From contig OY997589.1 of the NCBI GenBank assembly GCA_963921825.1, forward strand, positions 22,279,482 through 22,343,481: a DNA stretch of 64,000 bases. The letters are read 5' to 3'. The notes under the pieces were generated by a model. That model saw nothing but the letters and a program-made list of their open reading frames with translations. It was not told the origin of the DNA and did no database searches. A program made the position numbers and the translations under genes. This stretch comes from Erodium maritimum. Lineage: Eukaryota; Streptophyta; Magnoliopsida; Geraniales; Geraniaceae. Positions 1,718-60,495 of the stretch are shown here, piece after piece (position 1 is the first letter of the stretch; every line of letters starts with the position of its first letter).

Positions 1718-1906
1718 TGTAAAACCCGCTTCGAAAAAAAAAAAAATTGGGTCGAACCGGGTCGGACCGGACCCGACCAGAACCCGGCCAGACCAGCAAC
1801 CCGCCCAGCAGGCCCGGTCAGACCCGGCCTCTTGCTCTTGTTGGGCCATGGAAGCTCAGGCCCACCTTGGCCAAGCCCGTGTGCCAGGCCCGTTTGAGGG
1901 TTCGGG

Positions 1907-1914
1907 TATAAAAG
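1907..1914 (+). promoter_or_regulatory. TATA box of solo LTR (family B)
   Basis: TATAAAAG about 190 bp inside the LTR, followed about 20 bases later by GAAACCCTAAT, which resembles a plant telo-box/transcription-start motif. Family A LTRs have the same pair (TATA at 46740 and 51741), so this is probably the old LTR promoter. Activity is unknown. Confidence 0.6.
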
Positions 1915-3599
1915 ACCAGATTAGGGTCTGAAACCCTAATCTGTCATCGTCTTCTTCGCGCAGCCCCCTCCCGACCCTTCCTCCCTCTTGGTTCTTCGAT
2001 CCCGTCCAGCCACCACGCCGCCGTCCTCTCCCGACGCCACCGTCGCCGGCCACCTCACCTCCCACGTCCGACCTCCTCTCCCGTCCCTCGACCCTCTCCC
2101 TCCTCTGGTTCGAAACCCCATCCCCGACCTCCTTCTTCTTCGTCCACGCCGTCGCCGGCCACACTACCGACCTCCCTCCACCGGCCGTCCCTCTCTGCCC
2201 TCATCCAATCCCGAACCCGACCTCCCCTTCGCCGCCGTCACCTCCTCCGTCCGACCACGACAGCCACGCCCTCGACCCACCACCGTCCTCTCCCTCACCT
2301 TCTCTCCTCTCACGGCCAACGCCGCCGCGCCGTGCTTTTCCGGCAGTGACGAAGCTCATGCTCAACCTCGGCCACCACCGCCGTGTCCTTCATCCCCCAC
2401 CACCGTCCCTCTCGGTTCCGACCGTCCCGAGCCCGAGCTCGGCCACCACCGCTCTCCACCGCCCGTTTCCCTTCGGTGAGAGATCTCACCACGGAGTTGG
2501 TCGCCGGCGATGGCTTCGCCGGTGGCCGGATCCGTTTCAATAACGTCTTCCCGCTTTATATTCTATCCCGTATTTACCCTAAATCTGATCGGTTTCGTGC
2601 TGTTCGTTTCAAGTAATTTTGGATCTGTTGAAATCGACTAATATCCGTTAAACCCGTTAAAGAAATCGTTTAAAATAGAATCAGATTGGAAATTAAAAAG
2701 GAAAGTAAAACGAAGCAAAACGGATTAGATGTGGTCACGGTTTTGGAAAGAAAGGGGTTGTAAAATGGAACATCAGATATAAGGAAAAAGGGTTTTAAGA
2801 TGAAAAGGAATTAAAAGCGTTTCGGTTTTAAAAACAGTTTAAATCGAGGAGTTGTGAATCTAAGTTGTAAACGGGATTTAGGGACGGTTGTTCAAAAACC
2901 GACCCTAATTCATTTTGGTCTCAAAGATCGGAACAGAATCAGATTTGAAATAAAAAGGGAATTCGTTTTAAAATAAAAACCGTTCTATTTTGAAAAAGGG
3001 TTATTAATCGGATGTAGGAACGACTCTGGAACTCTGGGTAGAATGAACTGCTATTTGGGTTTAAAAGGGAACAAAGGCGGACCGCTGAATCGGACCTCGG
3101 GATTCGTGCATTGGGACCGTGCCTCGCATGCACCGGTTTCGGTGCTCGGTACTCAAACCCGATTCACCGTGACCCCGCTTTTATCCCGCTCAAGTTTAAA
3201 GGACAACTGTCGTTTTTAGACTGATTTAATCGTGACCTTTAGATTAACCTGGGAACCGCCTCTAATTTATGGCTTTCGTGTTATCCTTAGCGTCCGGCTT
3301 CGATCGAAGTGAAGCCCGGAGGTAGCGAGCCAGAACGTCAGCAGCTAGGAAGCGTAGCGGTTGCTCTTCAGTTGAGGTAGGGAAAAGTAGCCGGATCTCG
3401 GCCCTGACTAGGGAAAATTAACAGTAGATTTGCATGTGACACCGGGGTGTCGTGGGATGAGTAGGTTTAGTTTAAATACTAGAAAAGCATGATACGGGGT
3501 TGTAGCGTTTATCAGAAAAGCATGTTACAAGAACTTAGGAATTATTGAGAAAAGCATGTGACACTTAGTAGTGTCGTAGGAGCAGAGAACTTAGCGTTA

Positions 3600-4540
3600 A
3601 TTGTTTTACTGGAGGCATATGACCATGCCCGGAGGTTGTTTGTGAACTTATCGATATTAGGAGTACTGGAGGCATATGACCATGCCCGGAGGTTGATTGT
3701 GAAACTGTTGATTTTAGGACTGTTGGAGGCTTGGGTTAAGCCGGAGGTTGATTGTTTATTTTGGCGTCTTTGGTGGCCATGAGAGCCCGTGTTGTTAATC
3801 GTGTTTGGGTGGCCATGAGAGCCCGTACTTTATTGTTGGTGTTTTAGCTGGCTTATGAGTTAGAGTCTCGGTAAGTTGCAAGCGTGTTTTATTGTTGAGT
3901 TTTGGGTGGCCGTGAGTGCCCGTGGGGTTGTTGAAACCGTGTCTTTACCTTTGGTGCTTTGGGTGGCCTTGAGAGCCGTGTAATAAGGTTGGTGTCTTTG
4001 GCTGGCCTGACCGAGTTAGAGTCTCGGGGGGTTGCAAGCTCTCTTTAGCTGGCTTACGAGTTAGAGTCTCGGTAAGTTGCAAGCGTGTTTTATGGTTGGT
4101 GTCTTGGGAGGCCGTGAGTGCCTGTGGGGCTGTTGAGTCCGAGTTTTACTGTTAGTGTCTTGGTGGCCATGAGTGCCTATGAGTGTTGAACCTGTGTTGT
4201 TACTGGTTGTGAACTTGCCTGTGTTTGTGATTGTGTTTGTGGTTACCGGAGGTTGGGGGCCCGCTTCCTGAAACGGGGGTCCACGAGCACACGCGTTTGC
4301 ATGTTCAGACGGGGTAGGGGGCCCGCCCGCCAATAAAGGGGTCCTGGCCGCGCGTGTGTGGTTTGGGTTTGTGAGCATACCTTGGCTGGCTTATGGGTTA
4401 GAGTCCCAGTAAGTTGCAGCATTTTCCGGCTGGCTTATGGGTTAGAGTGCCAGTAAGTTGCAGCATTTTCCGGCTGGCTTATGGGTTAGAGTCTCGGTAA
4501 GTTGCAGCATTCTTGGGTTGGCCTGACCGGGTTAGAGTCC
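3600..4540 (+). repeat. Tandem hairpin modules in family B LTR leader
   Basis: Three kinds of short repeated units follow each other. First, GGAGGCATATGACCATGCCCGG-type units (about 3608, 3666, 3724), where GGCAT/ATGCC becomes GGCTT/AAGCC in the third. Second, GGTGGCCATGAGAGCCCGT-type units (3770-4180). Third, units with constant loop TTAGAGT (about 3856, 4011, 4056, 4394, 4438 and later), whose flanking stems read TGAG/CTCG, CGAG/CTCG and TGGG/CCCA. Stem positions change in a paired way while loops stay fixed. The function is not known; RNA folding in the transcript leader is an inference. Confidence 0.7.
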
Positions 4541-4834
4541 CAGGAGGGCGTTCTTGGCAGCTGGTTTGCGATCCTCTGTGATCTTGTTTGGGGTGCGATC
4601 CTTTGTGATCTTGTTTGGGGTTACGTGGTTCCTTTGAGTCCTTGGAAGAGGTCGTGATCGTTTTGTCGTGTCTACTTACGTGTTTGAGTGTTGAGTCGTT
4701 CGAGGAAGGTCACCGTGGGTGTTTGTCAGTCAGAGTACTTGGGTTGGGGACAGTGATCCCCGGGGTCGAGTTTGTTGTTGGTGTTACCGGCATTGTCTGC
4801 TAATTATGTCGTAGTCAGTCTGTTATTCGTGGTG

Positions 4835-4871
4835 GTGAGCGAACGCTCACCCCTAGCTGCTTTTCCTACAG
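4835..4871 (+). other. Conserved hairpin plus 3'-splice-site-like motif (family B LTR)
   Basis: GTGAGCGAACGCTCAC forms a 6-7 bp stem. It is followed by CCCCTAGCTGC and the pyrimidine tract TTTTCCTACAG, whose AG lies 21 nt after the hairpin and 255 nt before the LTR end. The same arrangement and spacing occur at 60202-60238 and, with a GNRA loop, in family A LTRs. Confidence 0.6.
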
Positions 4872-5131
4872 GTACTGTTCGTGGGACGGACTAGGTGAGC
4901 TCTCGAAGCTTGTGGAGCTAGGAGCGGAGTCCGGGTTTTTACTTTGGGTCTAGCGACGGATACCTCGCCCTTTTGTCCGCTTGTGGGACGTTTTATTTGA
5001 ATTGTAATTATCTTTTGTTGAACTAAACTGGTATTGTAAAGTGTTTTAATGGAAATGTTTTCAAAGTGCTTTCTTTTTCTAAACGTTCGCGTCCCGAGTT
5101 CGGTTTACTGAAATTGGGGCGTGACAATATC

Positions 5132-46172: not shown

Positions 46173-46188
46173 GCATCCATGGTTGAAT

Positions 46189-46222
<34 letters not shown>

Positions 46223-46246
46223 TAGGTTCAATTCCTACTAGATGCA
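46173..46246 (+). tRNA. trnI-CAU: Nuclear copy of plastid trnI-CAU (NUPT), probably not functional
   Basis: 74 nt that I recognise as the plastid isoleucine tRNA with CAU anticodon: GCATCCATGG...GCGCCCAACTCATAATTGGC...GGTTCAATTCC...GATGCA. The anticodon loop CTCATAA and T loop TTCAATT are intact. From memory, the plastid gene has GGCTGAATGG and CTGGATGC where this copy has GGTTGAATGG and CTAGATGC. These C-to-T and G-to-A changes spoil one acceptor-stem pair (C opposite A) and fit cytosine methylation decay in the nucleus. The next about 20 bases (CGCCAATGGGACCCTCCAA) also look plastid-derived. Confidence 0.85.
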
Positions 46247-48464
46247 CGCCAATGGGACCCTCCAAGAAGTCGGTAGCTACTTGTACTAAAAAACAAGTAA
46301 GCGTAATCACGCTGATGCATGGGGGAGGCGGAGTCGGGGCCAGGACGAACTTCGTTCGTGGGGGAGTGCTTGGACCACGGGGACTGACGGGAGGAGCCCC
46401 GGTGGCATAACCGGCGGTCGAAGATGGTTAGGGTTCCCTTGGTTCAAGCTCCCTAGACGTGTTGTGAAGACCGCCTCAGTTTAAAAAGTTCTTTTATTTA
46501 TTTAAAAGTGTCCGATTGGAACGTCGAGGGTGTTTTTGGGTTAATCTCTTTTTCGTAAAAATAAAAATAAAAAAATTGGCTTTTTGAATCAGTTTTATAA
46601 AAAAAAAAAATTGTTGGGTCGGACCGGTTCGGACCAGACCCGACCAGGCCAGATCCGGCCCGTTTTCATCCCGTTCTCGTCTTGGGCCGTGTGGCCCAAC
46701 CCGGCAAAGTCCGGTAGTCAGGCCCGGTTGAGGCTCGGGTATAAAAGGGTCGTTTTAGGGTTAGAAACCCTAATTTCTACAACCGTTCTCCTTTCCCTCT
46801 CTGCAACCGAACCCGACTTCCCCTCTCACCTTCATCTCCTTCCTCCTTCGTCGCCACGGCGTCCCCGACCTCCCTTCTCCTCCCTCGCATCACCACCACA
46901 CCGTGCCCGTCACCGCCTCTCCGTCCTTCCCCGTCTTCGAGACCGATATGGTCGCCATCGTCCCGAGCTCCTCTCCGCTCGAGCCTCGCAGCCACGCCCT
47001 CGTCCCGCCTCCATCTCCGTTTCCCCTCTTAGATCCGAGTTCCAGCCGCCGTGAATCGACGTGTTGACGCCGTCCCGACGCGGATTCGTCACTCCCGGGA
47101 CAGTAACCACCTCCCCGCGTCGTTGTTTTCTTTACGGTGAGATTCTCACCCTAGAGCTTCGACTGGCAACGGCATCGTCGATGGCCGGTCGAGCTGCAAA
47201 CCGAGCTTTCCTTCTCCTCTTGTTTTTCTGATCTCTCCCGAGCTTCTCCTTCTCTTTATTATTTCTGTCCCGAACTCTTCTCGGATTTGGACTGTTTTGA
47301 AACAAAATTTCACCTTAGATCTGGAAACAGAAATCTTCTGGAATCTGTCGAGTTTGAAATTAGAAAATTAAGGTTTTTGATCTGTATAAAGGGAAAATGT
47401 TTAAAAACAAAACTAGATTTGTTTAAATGAGAAAAAGGGTTTAAAATGAGTTTTAAATTAAAATCCGATTGATTTAAAACGGGTTTTGAGCAGTTGAACG
47501 AATCTAGAAAGTGGGACATTGAAACTAGACTGTAAAACGGACCTTGAACGGGATAAAAGTGAAACGCTGAAACGCTACCTCGAGAATCGTGCCACGAAAC
47601 CCGTGCCTCGAGGTCTGTGCATTGGGACCGTGCCTTGGGAAACATGCACCTGTTTCGGTGCTCAGGTGCTCGAACCCGATTCGTCGTAATCCTACTTTTA
47701 TCCCGTTCGAGCCTAAAAGACAACTATTGAACTTAAATCGAAACCGTTGTAACCTTTTAATTAATTTGTGAAACCGGTTTTAATTGTAGTTTTCTGTGTA
47801 AAGTAGAGTCCGGCTTCGATAGAAGAGAAGACCGGAGGTAGCGAGCCAGGACGTCAGCAACTAGGAGACGTAGCGGTTGTACGTCGGTTGAGGTAGGGAA
47901 GTAGCGGATACCGGTTTAATTGCGGAAAGTTACTAGTATGCATGCTAGGTTTAATAAAAACTGGAAAGACGTTTATATCAGATAATAACTGGACGAGTCA
48001 TAGTAACATGTAGGACGAGAACAACTAGCGTAGCCGATTGAACTGCGAACATTTACGTTTCTGTCTTGGAAATTGCTGTGCTGGTAGATTGGCCGTGTCG
48101 AGCCGTAGGTTGTGTGTTGTTTTGGAATTTCCTGTTATTGGTTGAGATGCTTGCCGTGTGAGTCGGTGTCATTAGGTTTAATAGACAAGATTAGTATATC
48201 CGTTGAGCATGTTGTTGTTATGTATGGGCGAGTGTGTCGTGGTTGTGTTGATCTGAACCCTTGGTTGTGTGATGGTCGGGTGAGTGATAGACCGATGTGA
48301 CTGGTTGTGGTAAGATTGTTGGGCTCGGTAAGCCGTGTTTAATTATGACACTTGTAATATTTATCTTGTTGTGTGTTCTGAGAAAAGACGTAACCGGAGT
48401 GATACTTGCACCGTGGGATAGTTTAGGTGTAGTGGATCGAGGCCAAGGATGGCGTGTTTGATAA

Positions 48465-51452: not shown

Positions 51453-51453
51453 T

Positions 51454-52746
51454 TGTGAAGACCGCCTCAGTTTAAAAAGTTCTTTTATTTATTTAAAAGT
51501 GTTCGATTGGAACGTCGAGGGTTTTTTGGGTTAATCTCTTTTTCGTAAAAATAAAAATAAAAAAATGGCTTTTTGAATCAGTTTTATAAAATAAAATAAA
51601 AATAAAAAAAATTGTTGGGTCGGACCGGTTCGGACCAGACCCGACCAGGCCAGATCCGGCCCGTTTTCAGCCCGTTCTCGTCTTGGGTCGTGCGGCCCAA
51701 CCCGGCGAAGTCCGGTAGTCAGGCCCGGTTGAGGCTCGGGTATAAAAGGGTCGTTTTAGGGTTAGAAACCCTAATTTCTGCAGCCGTTCTCCTTTCCCTC
51801 TCTGCAACCGAACCCGACTTCCCCTCTCACCTTCATCTCCTTCCTCCTTCGTCGCCACGGCGTCCCCGACCTCCCTTCTCCTCCTCTCGCATCACCACCA
51901 CACCGTGCCCGTCACCGCCTCTCCGTCCTTCCCCGTCTCCGAGACCGATCCGGTCGCCATCGTCCCGAGCTCCTCTCCGCTCGAGCCTCACAGCCACGCC
52001 CTCGTCCCGCCTCCATCTCCGTTTCCCCTCTCAGATCCGAGTTCCAGCCGCCGTGAATCGACGCGTCGACATCGTCCCGACGCGGATTCGTCACTCCCGG
52101 GACAGTAACCACCTCCCCGCGTCGTTGTTTTCTTTACGGTGAGATTCTCACCCTAGAGCTTCGGCCGACAACGGCATCGCCGATGGCCGGTCGAGCTGCA
52201 AACTGAGCTTTCCTTCTCCTCTTGTTTTTCCTGATCTCTCCCGAGCTTCTCCTTCTCTTTATTATTTCTGTCCCGAACTCTTCTCGGATTTGGACTGTTT
52301 TGAAACAAAATTTCACCTTAGATCTGGAAACAGAAATCTTCTGGAATCTGTCGAGTTTGAAATAAGAAAATTAAGGTTTTTGATCTGTATAAAGGGAAAA
52401 TGTTTAAAAACAAAACTAGATTTGTTTAAATGAGAACCTTAACTACTTTCCTACTGAGCGAAAGCTCACCCCTTACCTTGTTGTTTTTCAGGTTCTAAGC
52501 GGGAAGTGTACTAGCTGGATGCTCGATGCTTGGGAGCTTACGAGGGTCCTAGGCTAGGTAGTCTAGAGACGTACTGTTTTACTTTGAACTGTTTCACCAC
52601 TGGTTCTTTTTCCGAGCTGTGACTCGCGTAGTGTTTAAAGTGTTAAAAATTTGAGATAGAGACTTGTTGGCTTTATTTTCGAGTAAAATTGTTATTGTTT
52701 TAGTTCACGTCTCGAGTCCGGTCAAAACCGGATTTGGGGCGTGACA
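51454..52746 (+). repeat. Right LTR of the family A element
   Basis: Starts and ends as the left LTR. TATA box at 51741-51748, and the conserved hairpin/acceptor motif at 52455-52491, again 255 nt from the end. Length 1293 bp. Confidence 0.85.
52455..52491 (+). other. Conserved hairpin plus 3'-splice-site-like motif (right LTR)
   Basis: Identical in arrangement to 48969-49005: TGAGCGAAAGCTCA, then a pyrimidine tract ending TTTTTCAG. Confidence 0.58.
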
Positions 52747-57468: not shown

Positions 57469-59760
57469 GGATTCATCATCACATGCTTCTCAGTCTTCCC
57501 ATTGTTATCACTTAATCAATCATTATAACAAGATTAAAGGAAAAATCCAAATAAGTCGAGATATAGACCGGATATGTAAAACCCGCTTCGCTTTCAAAAG
57601 GGTATTAAATTGCAATCCGAAAACCTTAGGGTAGGTCTTTGAAAATTGTGGTAAAAAAAAGGAGCAGGTCTGGACCAGGCCAGGCGCGCAGGCCCAACCC
57701 AGCCCAGCCAGCCTTGAGCCCGGTTGGCTTCTGAGGCCCGAAGTGGCCGGCCCAAACCCACGCCCCTTATAAGCTGAAACCCTAGGGTTTCAGTGTCACT
57801 TTTGCACGCAGCCGAACCCCTCCCATCATCTCTTCCCTCCCGATTCCGTTTCTCTCTCCCTCTCTGGTTCATCTCGAGCTCGCCGGCCACGGGGTTTCCG
57901 GCCGCCACCTCCCTCACCACCCTCGTCCCCATCCTCCCCACCCTCTCCGACCAGTCTCTTCTCCGTCTTCGTCCAAAAACCGTCCGCCGCCGCAGTTACC
58001 TTCCCCCTTCCTCACGGATCCTCTCGAGCTCGCCGGCCACGGCACAGAGCCCGTGCCTCTCTCCGTCCTTCTTCTCCGTTCAGACGCACCGCCGCCGCCA
58101 CCGAGCCCTCCCTCTTCTCGGCCGCCCTCACCGACCTGACCTACCTCGCCGGTTTCGTCCGAAACCGCCGCTCCCACCGCCACTCTCCACCGCCCGCCAC
58201 CGTTCGTGTTCCCACGGTTAGGCTTCGGCCGGCTACGCCCTCACCGGTGGTCAGCCAGTTGTGAAAACCGAGTCCCTGTTTATTTTCGTTGCCAAATTCT
58301 TTCCCTTTACTGCTGTTCCATACTTGTTCTGGATCTGGTCTCGGTTTAAACCGATTTCCATTTGAATCTGAAATGTAAAGAAATCAAAGATAGTGAGATG
58401 TTGTTATTATGTTTCAAAACGAATTTAAAAAGGAATTAAAAAGGATTGTTATTTGAAACGAAAATTAATTGTATAAGGGAAAAAAAGGGAAAAAGGAAAT
58501 CAGGTGTTGAGTTCTTAAGAAATTTGATAAAACTAAATCTGATTAAATTAAACGGGTTTTAAAACGAAAGTCGGTTGTTAAGATTAAACTTGAGTTAAGT
58601 TAAATCGAAAAGGGAAACGAAATCAGATCGACTTTAGAAGGGTTTTGGATCAAAATCTCGAGTTTGGAAAAGAGCAGAAGGAAATCGTTTTGTTTTAAAA
58701 TCAAAGTCGGAATTAAATAAAGCAAGGAGTTTCAAAGACGGTTTTGAGATAAAAATGGTTTTAACTGGGTTTTGGATTAATCTGAGTTCGGTGCGCGGGT
58801 GCTCGAACCCGATTCGTTGTTAATTCCGCTTTTAGCCCGCTCGAATGTAAAAGACAACTGTCGGATTTAAACTGGACAAATCGTAACCTTTAACTTAACG
58901 GCGGAACCGTTATTAATTTGTGGCTTCGGGTTAAATTTAGAGTCCGGCTCCGATCGAAGGGGAGCCCCGGAGAGCAATTTACAAAACCCGGGCAGATTCG
59001 CCATGTCGGGCGAATCGGGCCTTTGCGGGTCCTTTATCGACAATGTCGAGTAGTTGGGAAGTTTGGGAGTGATCGACATTGTCGGGGTTACGTTGGGCGT
59101 TAAGTTTATTAATTTTCGGTTTATTCCTACTAGTTTAAAAGTGCTTTGAATTTGTGTTCTTTTAGATCGTGCTGCGGACCGAGGCAAAGGGAAGCTCGGC
59201 GAGTGACTGGGATCACCTCGGGTTTTAGTGGAGCGCTTTTGGAGTTGTTTACGAGGTAGGGAAAAGTAGCCGGATCTCGGCCCTGACTAGGGAAAGTTAC
59301 CTGTGGAAATGCATGTGACACTTAGCAGTGTCGTAGGAGCGGAGAACTTAGCGTTATTAGAATTACTGGAGGCATATGATCATGCCCGGAGGTTGTTTGT
59401 GAAACTAGTGATCTTAGGACTGTTGGAGGCATTGATTATGCCGGAGGTTGTTGTGTGTTATTATTGTTGAGTTTTGGGTGGCCTTGAGAGCCCGTGTTAT
59501 TTATTGTTGAGTTTGGGTGGCCTTGAGAGCCCGTGCTATTTATTGCTGAGTCTTGGGTGGCCATGAGAGCCCGTGTTGTCGTTTCGATGTTTTGGGTGGC
59601 CGTGAGTGCCCGTGGGGTTGTGAACCCGTACTTTACTGTTGGTGTCTTGGTGGCCTTGAGTGCCTGTGGAGTTGTCACCGGTGTCGTTACTGTCTGTTGA
59701 ATTTGTTTGTGATTGTGTTTGGTTACTTGATACTGGCGGAGGTTGTGTGGTGTAGCTAGC

Positions 59761-59952
59761 CTCCCGACTGGGATCGGGAGAAGCGGAGGGGTTGTGCGCT
59801 AGCTCCCCGACTGGGATCGGGGGAAGGACGCGCGGGTGTGGCTAACCACCCGACTGGGATCGGGTGAAGCGGAGAGGTTGTGGGTTAGCCTCCCGACTGG
59901 GATCGGGAGAAGTTGCGCGACAGGTCGACCGCCTGTGCCGACTGGGATCGGA
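59761..59952 (+). repeat. Hairpin array with constant CTGGGA loop
   Basis: Five units: CTCCCGA/TCGGGAG (59761-59780), TCCCCGA/TCGGGGG (about 59804-59823), CACCCGA/TCGGGTG (about 59847-59866), CTCCCGA/TCGGGAG (about 59890-59909) and CCGA/TCGG (about 59938-59951). All surround CTGGGA. Paired stem positions change together between units. Confidence 0.72.
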
Positions 59953-60201
59953 AAGGGCGAGATACAGAGATTGGTTACTGAGCAACTGGTTTGCGATCCT
60001 TTGCGATCGTGTTGGGTATTGTGTGGTTGTCAGTCGTGTCTTTGGAGGAGGTCGTCAATCGTAGTGTGGGGTCTACTTTCACGTGTCCGAGCGTTGAGTC
60101 AGTTGAGGAAAGTCTTGGTCGTGTGTGTGCCTTTTGAGTCGTTGTTGGTGTCACCGACTTTGTCTGCTAAGTATGCCGTAGTCAGTCTGTTATCTGTGGT
60201 G

Positions 60202-60238
60202 GTGAGCGAACGCTCACCCCTACCTGCTTTTCCTACAG
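60202..60238 (+). other. Conserved hairpin plus 3'-splice-site-like motif (family B LTR)
   Basis: GTGAGCGAACGCTCAC, then CCCTACCTGC and TTTTCCTACAG. The AG is 21 nt after the hairpin and 252 nt before the LTR end, as in the copy at 4835. Confidence 0.6.
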
Positions 60239-60495
60239 GTACCGTTCGCAGCCTGGACTAGGTGAGCTTCTGAAGCTTGAAGAGCTTGAAGCGGGTTTCT
60301 GGGTTGTTCTTGAGTCTAGTGACGTGTCCCACGTTTTTGTCCAATTGTTGGGACTTATTTTTGAGATGTAAATATAGGGTTGTTGAACTAAACTGGTATT
60401 TTAAAGTGATTTAATGGAAAAGGTTTCAAAGTGTTCATTATTTTAAATGTTCGCGTCCCGAGTTCGGTTCGCTGAAATTGGGGCGTGACAGGATA

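Follow-up and report, generated by a model that had tools for sequence, protein, structure and literature searches.

Hypervariable tandem repeats in the 3′ UTR of Tat/Ogre LTR retrotransposons were reportedly described by Macas et al. in 2009. The hairpins through which retroelements are packaged and dimerised lie in the 5′ leader of the genomic RNA. In the part of PMC7004042 available to us, the Tat/Ogre repeats vary from element to element: short arrays of tandem monomers occupy a constant position, which in the Tat lineage lies 3′ of the coding sequence, and the monomers of different elements are unlike in sequence and length. Repeats and stem-loops within LTRs are treated in the accessible portion of PMC3601003: retroviral long-R stem-loops, where conservation in the LTR leader is tied to both sides of the stem, and tandem repeats of U3, for example in Tnt1, which sit upstream of the TATA box and are tied to transcription.

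Here we compare with these systems a tandem array of hairpins found in the window, i.e. the whole stretch of 64,000 nucleotides of Erodium maritimum DNA that was analysed. The array shares with the Tat/Ogre repeats their short tandem units, fixed place and variable monomers; however, it lies inside the LTR of another Ty3/gypsy lineage and not between the coding region and the 3′ LTR, and its units, unlike those repeats as presented in that part of PMC7004042, form hairpins in many families. In the long-R stem-loops conservation is likewise tied to both stem sides, but they are neither tandem nor exchanged between families in this way (same portion of PMC3601003), and the U3 repeats are tandem within an LTR, yet placed on the other side of the TATA box. 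With the packaging and dimerisation hairpins the array has in common its presumed position in the 5′ leader, although its unit number and loops are far more variable. It would thus seem to belong to a type with known relatives – variable tandem repeats on the one hand, LTR stem-loops on the other – whose combination as tandem hairpins inside an LTR leader we did not find described: our search of open PMC papers returned no such array, in agreement with the initial annotation, and packaging terms are absent from the accessible part of a paper on BARE RNA pools (PMC3735527).

The hairpin array and its LTR

The features of the family B LTR are as follows.

57575..60490, + strand: family B solo LTR, 2916 bp, ends TGTAAAACCC...GGGGCGTGACA, target duplication GGATA
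57768..57773, + strand: TATA-like box, recognised from the sequence
59200..59220, + strand: isolated hairpin, CGAGTGA CTGGGA TCA(C)CTCG variant, with the array's loop on another stem
59761..59780, + strand: hairpin unit 1, CTCCCGA CTGGGA TCGGGAG
59804..59823, + strand: hairpin unit 2, TCCCCGA CTGGGA TCGGGGG, outermost pair U-G
59847..59866, + strand: hairpin unit 3, CACCCGA CTGGGA TCGGGTG
59890..59909, + strand: hairpin unit 4, CTCCCGA CTGGGA TCGGGAG
59920..59936, + strand: hairpin of a second type (HP1) within unit 5, ACAGG TCGACCG CCTGT
59938..59951, + strand: hairpin unit 5, CCGA CTGGGA TCGG
60201..60218, + strand: tail inverted repeat, GGTGAGCG AA CGCTCACC, the anchor for finding related LTRs

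The solo LTR has intact TG...CA ends, with the 5-bp duplication GGATA on both sides, and the same ends occur in a full-length copy, L069; these boundaries confirm that the array lies within a family B LTR. The five hairpins with their common loop CTGGGA were also found at the positions and with the stems first noted, near-regularly spaced at 43, 43, 43 and 45 nt (loop starts at 59768, 59811, 59854, 59897 and 59942). Units 1-4 have perfect 7-bp stems, in three versions around one loop, and the isolated hairpin with this loop lies ~560 nt upstream of the array. Hairpins of 5 bp or more that do not overlap number five across 59751-59985, whereas shuffles average 2.0 (p = 0.02, 300 shuffles). At minimum energy 59740-59965 folds more stably than shuffles (z -3.35), but with unit 1 paired to unit 4 in place of separate hairpins in each of the five units. 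This fold, HP1 and the isolated hairpin do not figure in the initial annotation. An 86-nt period was also called by TRF, units 1+2 being 87% identical to units 3+4, and between distinct units 2-3 of the 20 hairpin positions vary, versus 3-14 of 23 in the spacers. The constancy of the loop in the array is partly a matter of recent duplication, an alternative foreseen in the initial annotation. Just upstream of the hairpins, the same LTR holds a second tandem array (59455-59614) with a period of ~39 nt (TTGGGTGGCCTTGAGAGCCCGTG), and words similar to it also occur in family A, introduced below.

Orientation and class come from the full-length relative.

C1:27955950-27961700: L069, full-length relative, which sits between two B arrays

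In L069 the LTR end GGGGCGTGACA is followed by GCTTGGTATCAGAGC, which we take to be an initiator-Met-type (tRNA-iMet) primer site, then by gag, protease, RT, RNase H and integrase in that order (Pfam), and the 3′ LTR starts with TGTAAAACCC. Because of this primer site and gag-pol order, the hairpin array is on the sense strand. The same two features mark L069 as Ty3/gypsy, the window copy itself being a solo LTR. The C-terminal piece of the L069 integrase matches Pfam SH3_Tf2-1 and not Chromo, a chromodomain-like end being discernible by eye only; the long LTR and iMet primer site may point to the Tekay/Del clade. The tail pattern GAGCGNACGCTCACC has 15,458 matches in the genome, exactly 7729 per strand (reversed control 1), and pairs of GACTGGGATC 20-40 nt apart occur at 4631 places in the 763 Mb genome (reversed control 1). 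The element that carries the array is a high-copy Ty3/gypsy LTR retrotransposon.

Since a TATA-like box stands at 57768 and 18 ATGs lie from the putative start to the end of the LTR, the sequence suggests a long leader. The transcript would start near 57798, placing the array, which follows the TATA-like box at a distance of ~2 kb, in the leader that the initial annotation had presumed; its sense orientation and position fit that anatomy.

A hypervariable module in related LTRs

A related LTR family is represented in the same window.

1718..5126, + strand: family A solo LTR, TSD ATATC
about 3843-4080 and 4384-4543, + strand: family A hairpin units, loop TTAGAGT

Families A and B share the tail inverted repeat, and within the tail one stretch shows 75% identity across 540 aligned columns. 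At the position equivalent to the B array, the family A units have their own constant loop, TTAGAGT, on stems that include TGGG/CCCA, CGAG/CTCG and CCGGG/CCCGG, and in several of them GGTAAGT, a splice-donor-like word, adjoins the stem.

We then read the stretch upstream of the tail pattern at 60 of 100 listed places (of 15,458 in total), all on contig C1, a sample that passes over known B arrays, some places close to others and the last part of the list. The array site is occupied in these 60 LTRs by roughly a dozen unit types, whose loops and stems differ from those of the B array. All 60 hold at least one of 13 motifs, a coverage that follows by construction, the motifs having been drawn from these same LTRs. 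With several motifs possible at one locus, the counts are HP1 37, C 17, F0 10, A and I 8 each, D, F and G 7 each, B-like 5, H and I2 3 each, E 2 and L113 1. Unit order was identical in all eight copies read of the L113 family (L113 included), whereas unit numbers differ in two other families (20 more loci over the three families, L113's among them); one array of the L113 family contains CCGAC/GTCGG, CCAAC/GTTGG and CCGAT/GTCGG together. Type D units (loop region TTTGAGTA) form arrays at the same site in L072, L074, L076, L079, L097 and L122, where stem pairing has been lost and the unit is nonetheless repeated and amplified. The array of the window represents one form of a hypervariable module, within a leader region that changes fast.

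Type F units (L081, L086, L098, L117, L128) pair CCGAG with CTCGG around the loop TTCGAGT, which fits the tRNA T-loop consensus. An origin of the units from a tRNA T-arm was considered for that reason and rejected, as the T-loop is not shared by other unit types.

Partial retention of pairing in the stems

The initial annotation held that both sides of the stem change together, as expected of a folded RNA that has been kept. In the window pairing is indeed kept across three stem versions: unit 1 differs from unit 3 by two substitutions and from unit 2 by three, with all seven pairs preserved (product P 0.001-0.02). The two-sided changes, however, are confined to one of the seven pairs (pair 6), pair 7 adding a one-sided U-G change, and shuffling the 3′ arms of units 1-4 gave p 0.083, the smallest value possible with four such units.

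Beyond the window, hairpin types present in at least three loci were connected by a minimum spanning tree and set against random substitution at an equal number of sites, with P values for transition shares of 0.33/0.60/0.75. B-like hairpins (six types, six substitutions) show a net loss of 0 pairs (P 0.0004/0.0042/0.0066) and the CCGAC type (five types, four substitutions) a net -1 (P 0.0004/0.0036/0.011). Family A without type D, with six types, is borderline (P 0.0038/0.030/0.077), and this test gave no signal for family A with type D (P 0.10/0.32/0.51) or for HP1 (P 0.07/0.25/0.40). B-like rows were dropped if they had no innermost A-T pair or, in another count, fewer than two of three inner pairs, a filter with a slight bias in favour of pairing; type D was left out only where stated. 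Single pairs add to this picture. In 119 TTAGAGT units of family A, pair 4 is U-A in 40, C-G in 56, U-G in 20 and C-A in only 2, and one-sided G-U states have become fixed in families (CCGAC/GTTGG, CTCCCGA/TCGGGGG, CTTCCGA/TCGGGAG and CCGAT/GTCGG), which argues for some RNA-level constraint. Overall, the ratio of G-U to A-C over 42 typed rows, 13:11, is not decisive as a test of the strand and gives no such argument. Among recurrent distinct hairpins it is 4:2 in family A, 3:0 in HP1 and 1:3 in the CCGAC type; it reaches 7:1 in recurrent distinct CTGGGA-like hairpins, some rows of which are not array units. The mismatched stem CACCCGA/TCGGGGG recurs in 8 loci.

Covariation in the stricter sense was not recovered. 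An R-scape-style test with a phylogeny-aware null found no pair at E < 0.05 in either of two alignments: the best pair among 85 family-A-type units (3 of 88 rows, poly-G, having been dropped) lies in the lower helix at E 0.083, and the best among 59 HP1-containing units, at E 0.99, is not a proposed pair. This comes close to the lack of significant covariation that the initial annotation had named as counting against a kept structure. For CCGA-type stems in a single register, pairing equals that of shuffles (p 0.64) without two isolated hairpins, and reaches p 0.03 (four columns) or 0.07 (five columns) with them; the core CCGA/TCGG gives the impression of sequence conservation and not of covariation. 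A type-level permutation over 18 CCGA-type arms (69 of 72 pairs versus 44 in shuffles) was set aside because it mixed two stem registers, and in a single register the effect is weak or gone. Independent events are few throughout, and the unit classes were defined after the data had been seen.

Folding energies point the same way for single units. The mean z against shuffles of 31 typed units is -0.2 in sense and -0.7 in antisense, so that the antisense strand folds slightly better. In sliding 36-nt windows over 39 loci (the 34 of 40 then-sampled LTRs with the anchor, plus L001, L002, L039, L041 and L050), the array averages z 0.01 in sense and -0.13 in antisense, versus 0.20 and 0.06 in a downstream control, and lies below that control in 26 of the 39. 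Unusual stability of the units is supported by neither data set. Hairpins number 2.15 per array versus 1.38 in shuffles (60 arrays, 40 above their own shuffle mean), and the downstream control has 1.12 versus 0.64, making the excess in the array no larger in ratio. The claim of a kept RNA fold is accordingly supported in part, by the substitution test in B-like and CCGAC units, but finds no significant pair under the phylogeny-aware null, no pairing in type D and no unit energies below shuffles.

Possible roles and rival explanations

Our tentative reading, to which we give somewhat less than even confidence, is that of a hypervariable leader array in which sense-RNA pairing is probably maintained, and whose role we would guess to be that of a multivalent recognition site. 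Units would arise by tandem duplication and then be homogenised within the array, leaving the loop constant inside a family and different between families. In the stem-keeping families (B, B-like and CCGAC), base pairing of the sense RNA has probably survived the drift of the stem letters, perhaps through selection. If the hairpins fold in cells, they could offer several binding sites on the genomic RNA, for example to the element's own Gag, and family-specific loops would then give self-recognition; recognition by Gag is a guess. Perhaps the array even acts as a fast-evolving identity tag on genomic RNA, its loops fixed within families and replaced between them with pairing kept, through which the Gag of each family, or else a host factor, would tell that family's RNA from others, though we consider this unlikely.

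The main rival is template switching. Here there would be no selection on RNA at all, and the array would be a fast-turning tandem repeat in the LTR that strand transfer had produced in the course of reverse transcription; its units would have begun as a chance near-palindrome, and two-arm changes would result from template switching or conversion between units, one arm being re-copied from the other. We regard this as possible, if somewhat doubtful. Two-sided changes can come from template switching without selection, and stems can be created and mended by it, according to the part of PMC8794818 available to us; the Ogre tandem repeats are ascribed to abnormal strand transfer in the accessible part of PMC7004042. 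Such an origin agrees with unit numbers and types that are hypervariable between and within families, with sense energies near those of shuffles and lower antisense ones, with a core that is conserved and does not covary, and with the repetition of type D without pairing. Yet one-sided G-U states fixed in families are not expected from re-copying one arm, and the P values for retained pairing in the B-like and CCGAC types also speak against it.

Distinctly unlikely, in our view, is that the units are DNA sites for host transcription factors, i.e. tandem LTR enhancers in which the inverted repeat serves as a palindromic site for binding. All units in the window contain CCGAC, which we take to be the core of the plant DRE/CRT element, and the CCGA/TCGG core is conserved as sequence across many families; antisense folding is as good as sense, and U3 tandem repeats are known to act in transcription (accessible part of PMC3601003). 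However, the array lies far downstream of the TATA-like box, and CCGAG or other letters replace CCGAC in families A, D and F. An effect on how the long leader is processed or translated, with hairpins masking splice donors or upstream starts, would make use of the 18 ATGs, of GGTAAGT beside the family A stems and of the acceptor-like TTTTCCTACAG downstream in both LTRs, but is very unlikely, family B units having no GT donor at that place.

Should the hairpins work in RNA, as in the reading we prefer, evolution would have supplied, in thousands of copies within one genome, a natural set of variants of a modular leader element that differ in loop, stem and number of units, and the separation of co-resident LTR retrotransposon families at the RNA level would become testable. 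If they are not functional, the array clearly illustrates how a tandem repeat can seem to covary until phylogeny is taken into account, and the template-switch repair of near-palindromes could be measured in it as a natural system.

Rfam at gathering thresholds gave no match at the array and two in the window as a whole, both at 46173-46247: in this plastid-like fragment the + strand matches a tRNA and the - strand the Plastid-ycf2 5′ UTR family. Nearby, direct repeats of ~980 bp that are 96% identical (46462-47433 and 51453-52436) are possibly the LTR pair of another element.
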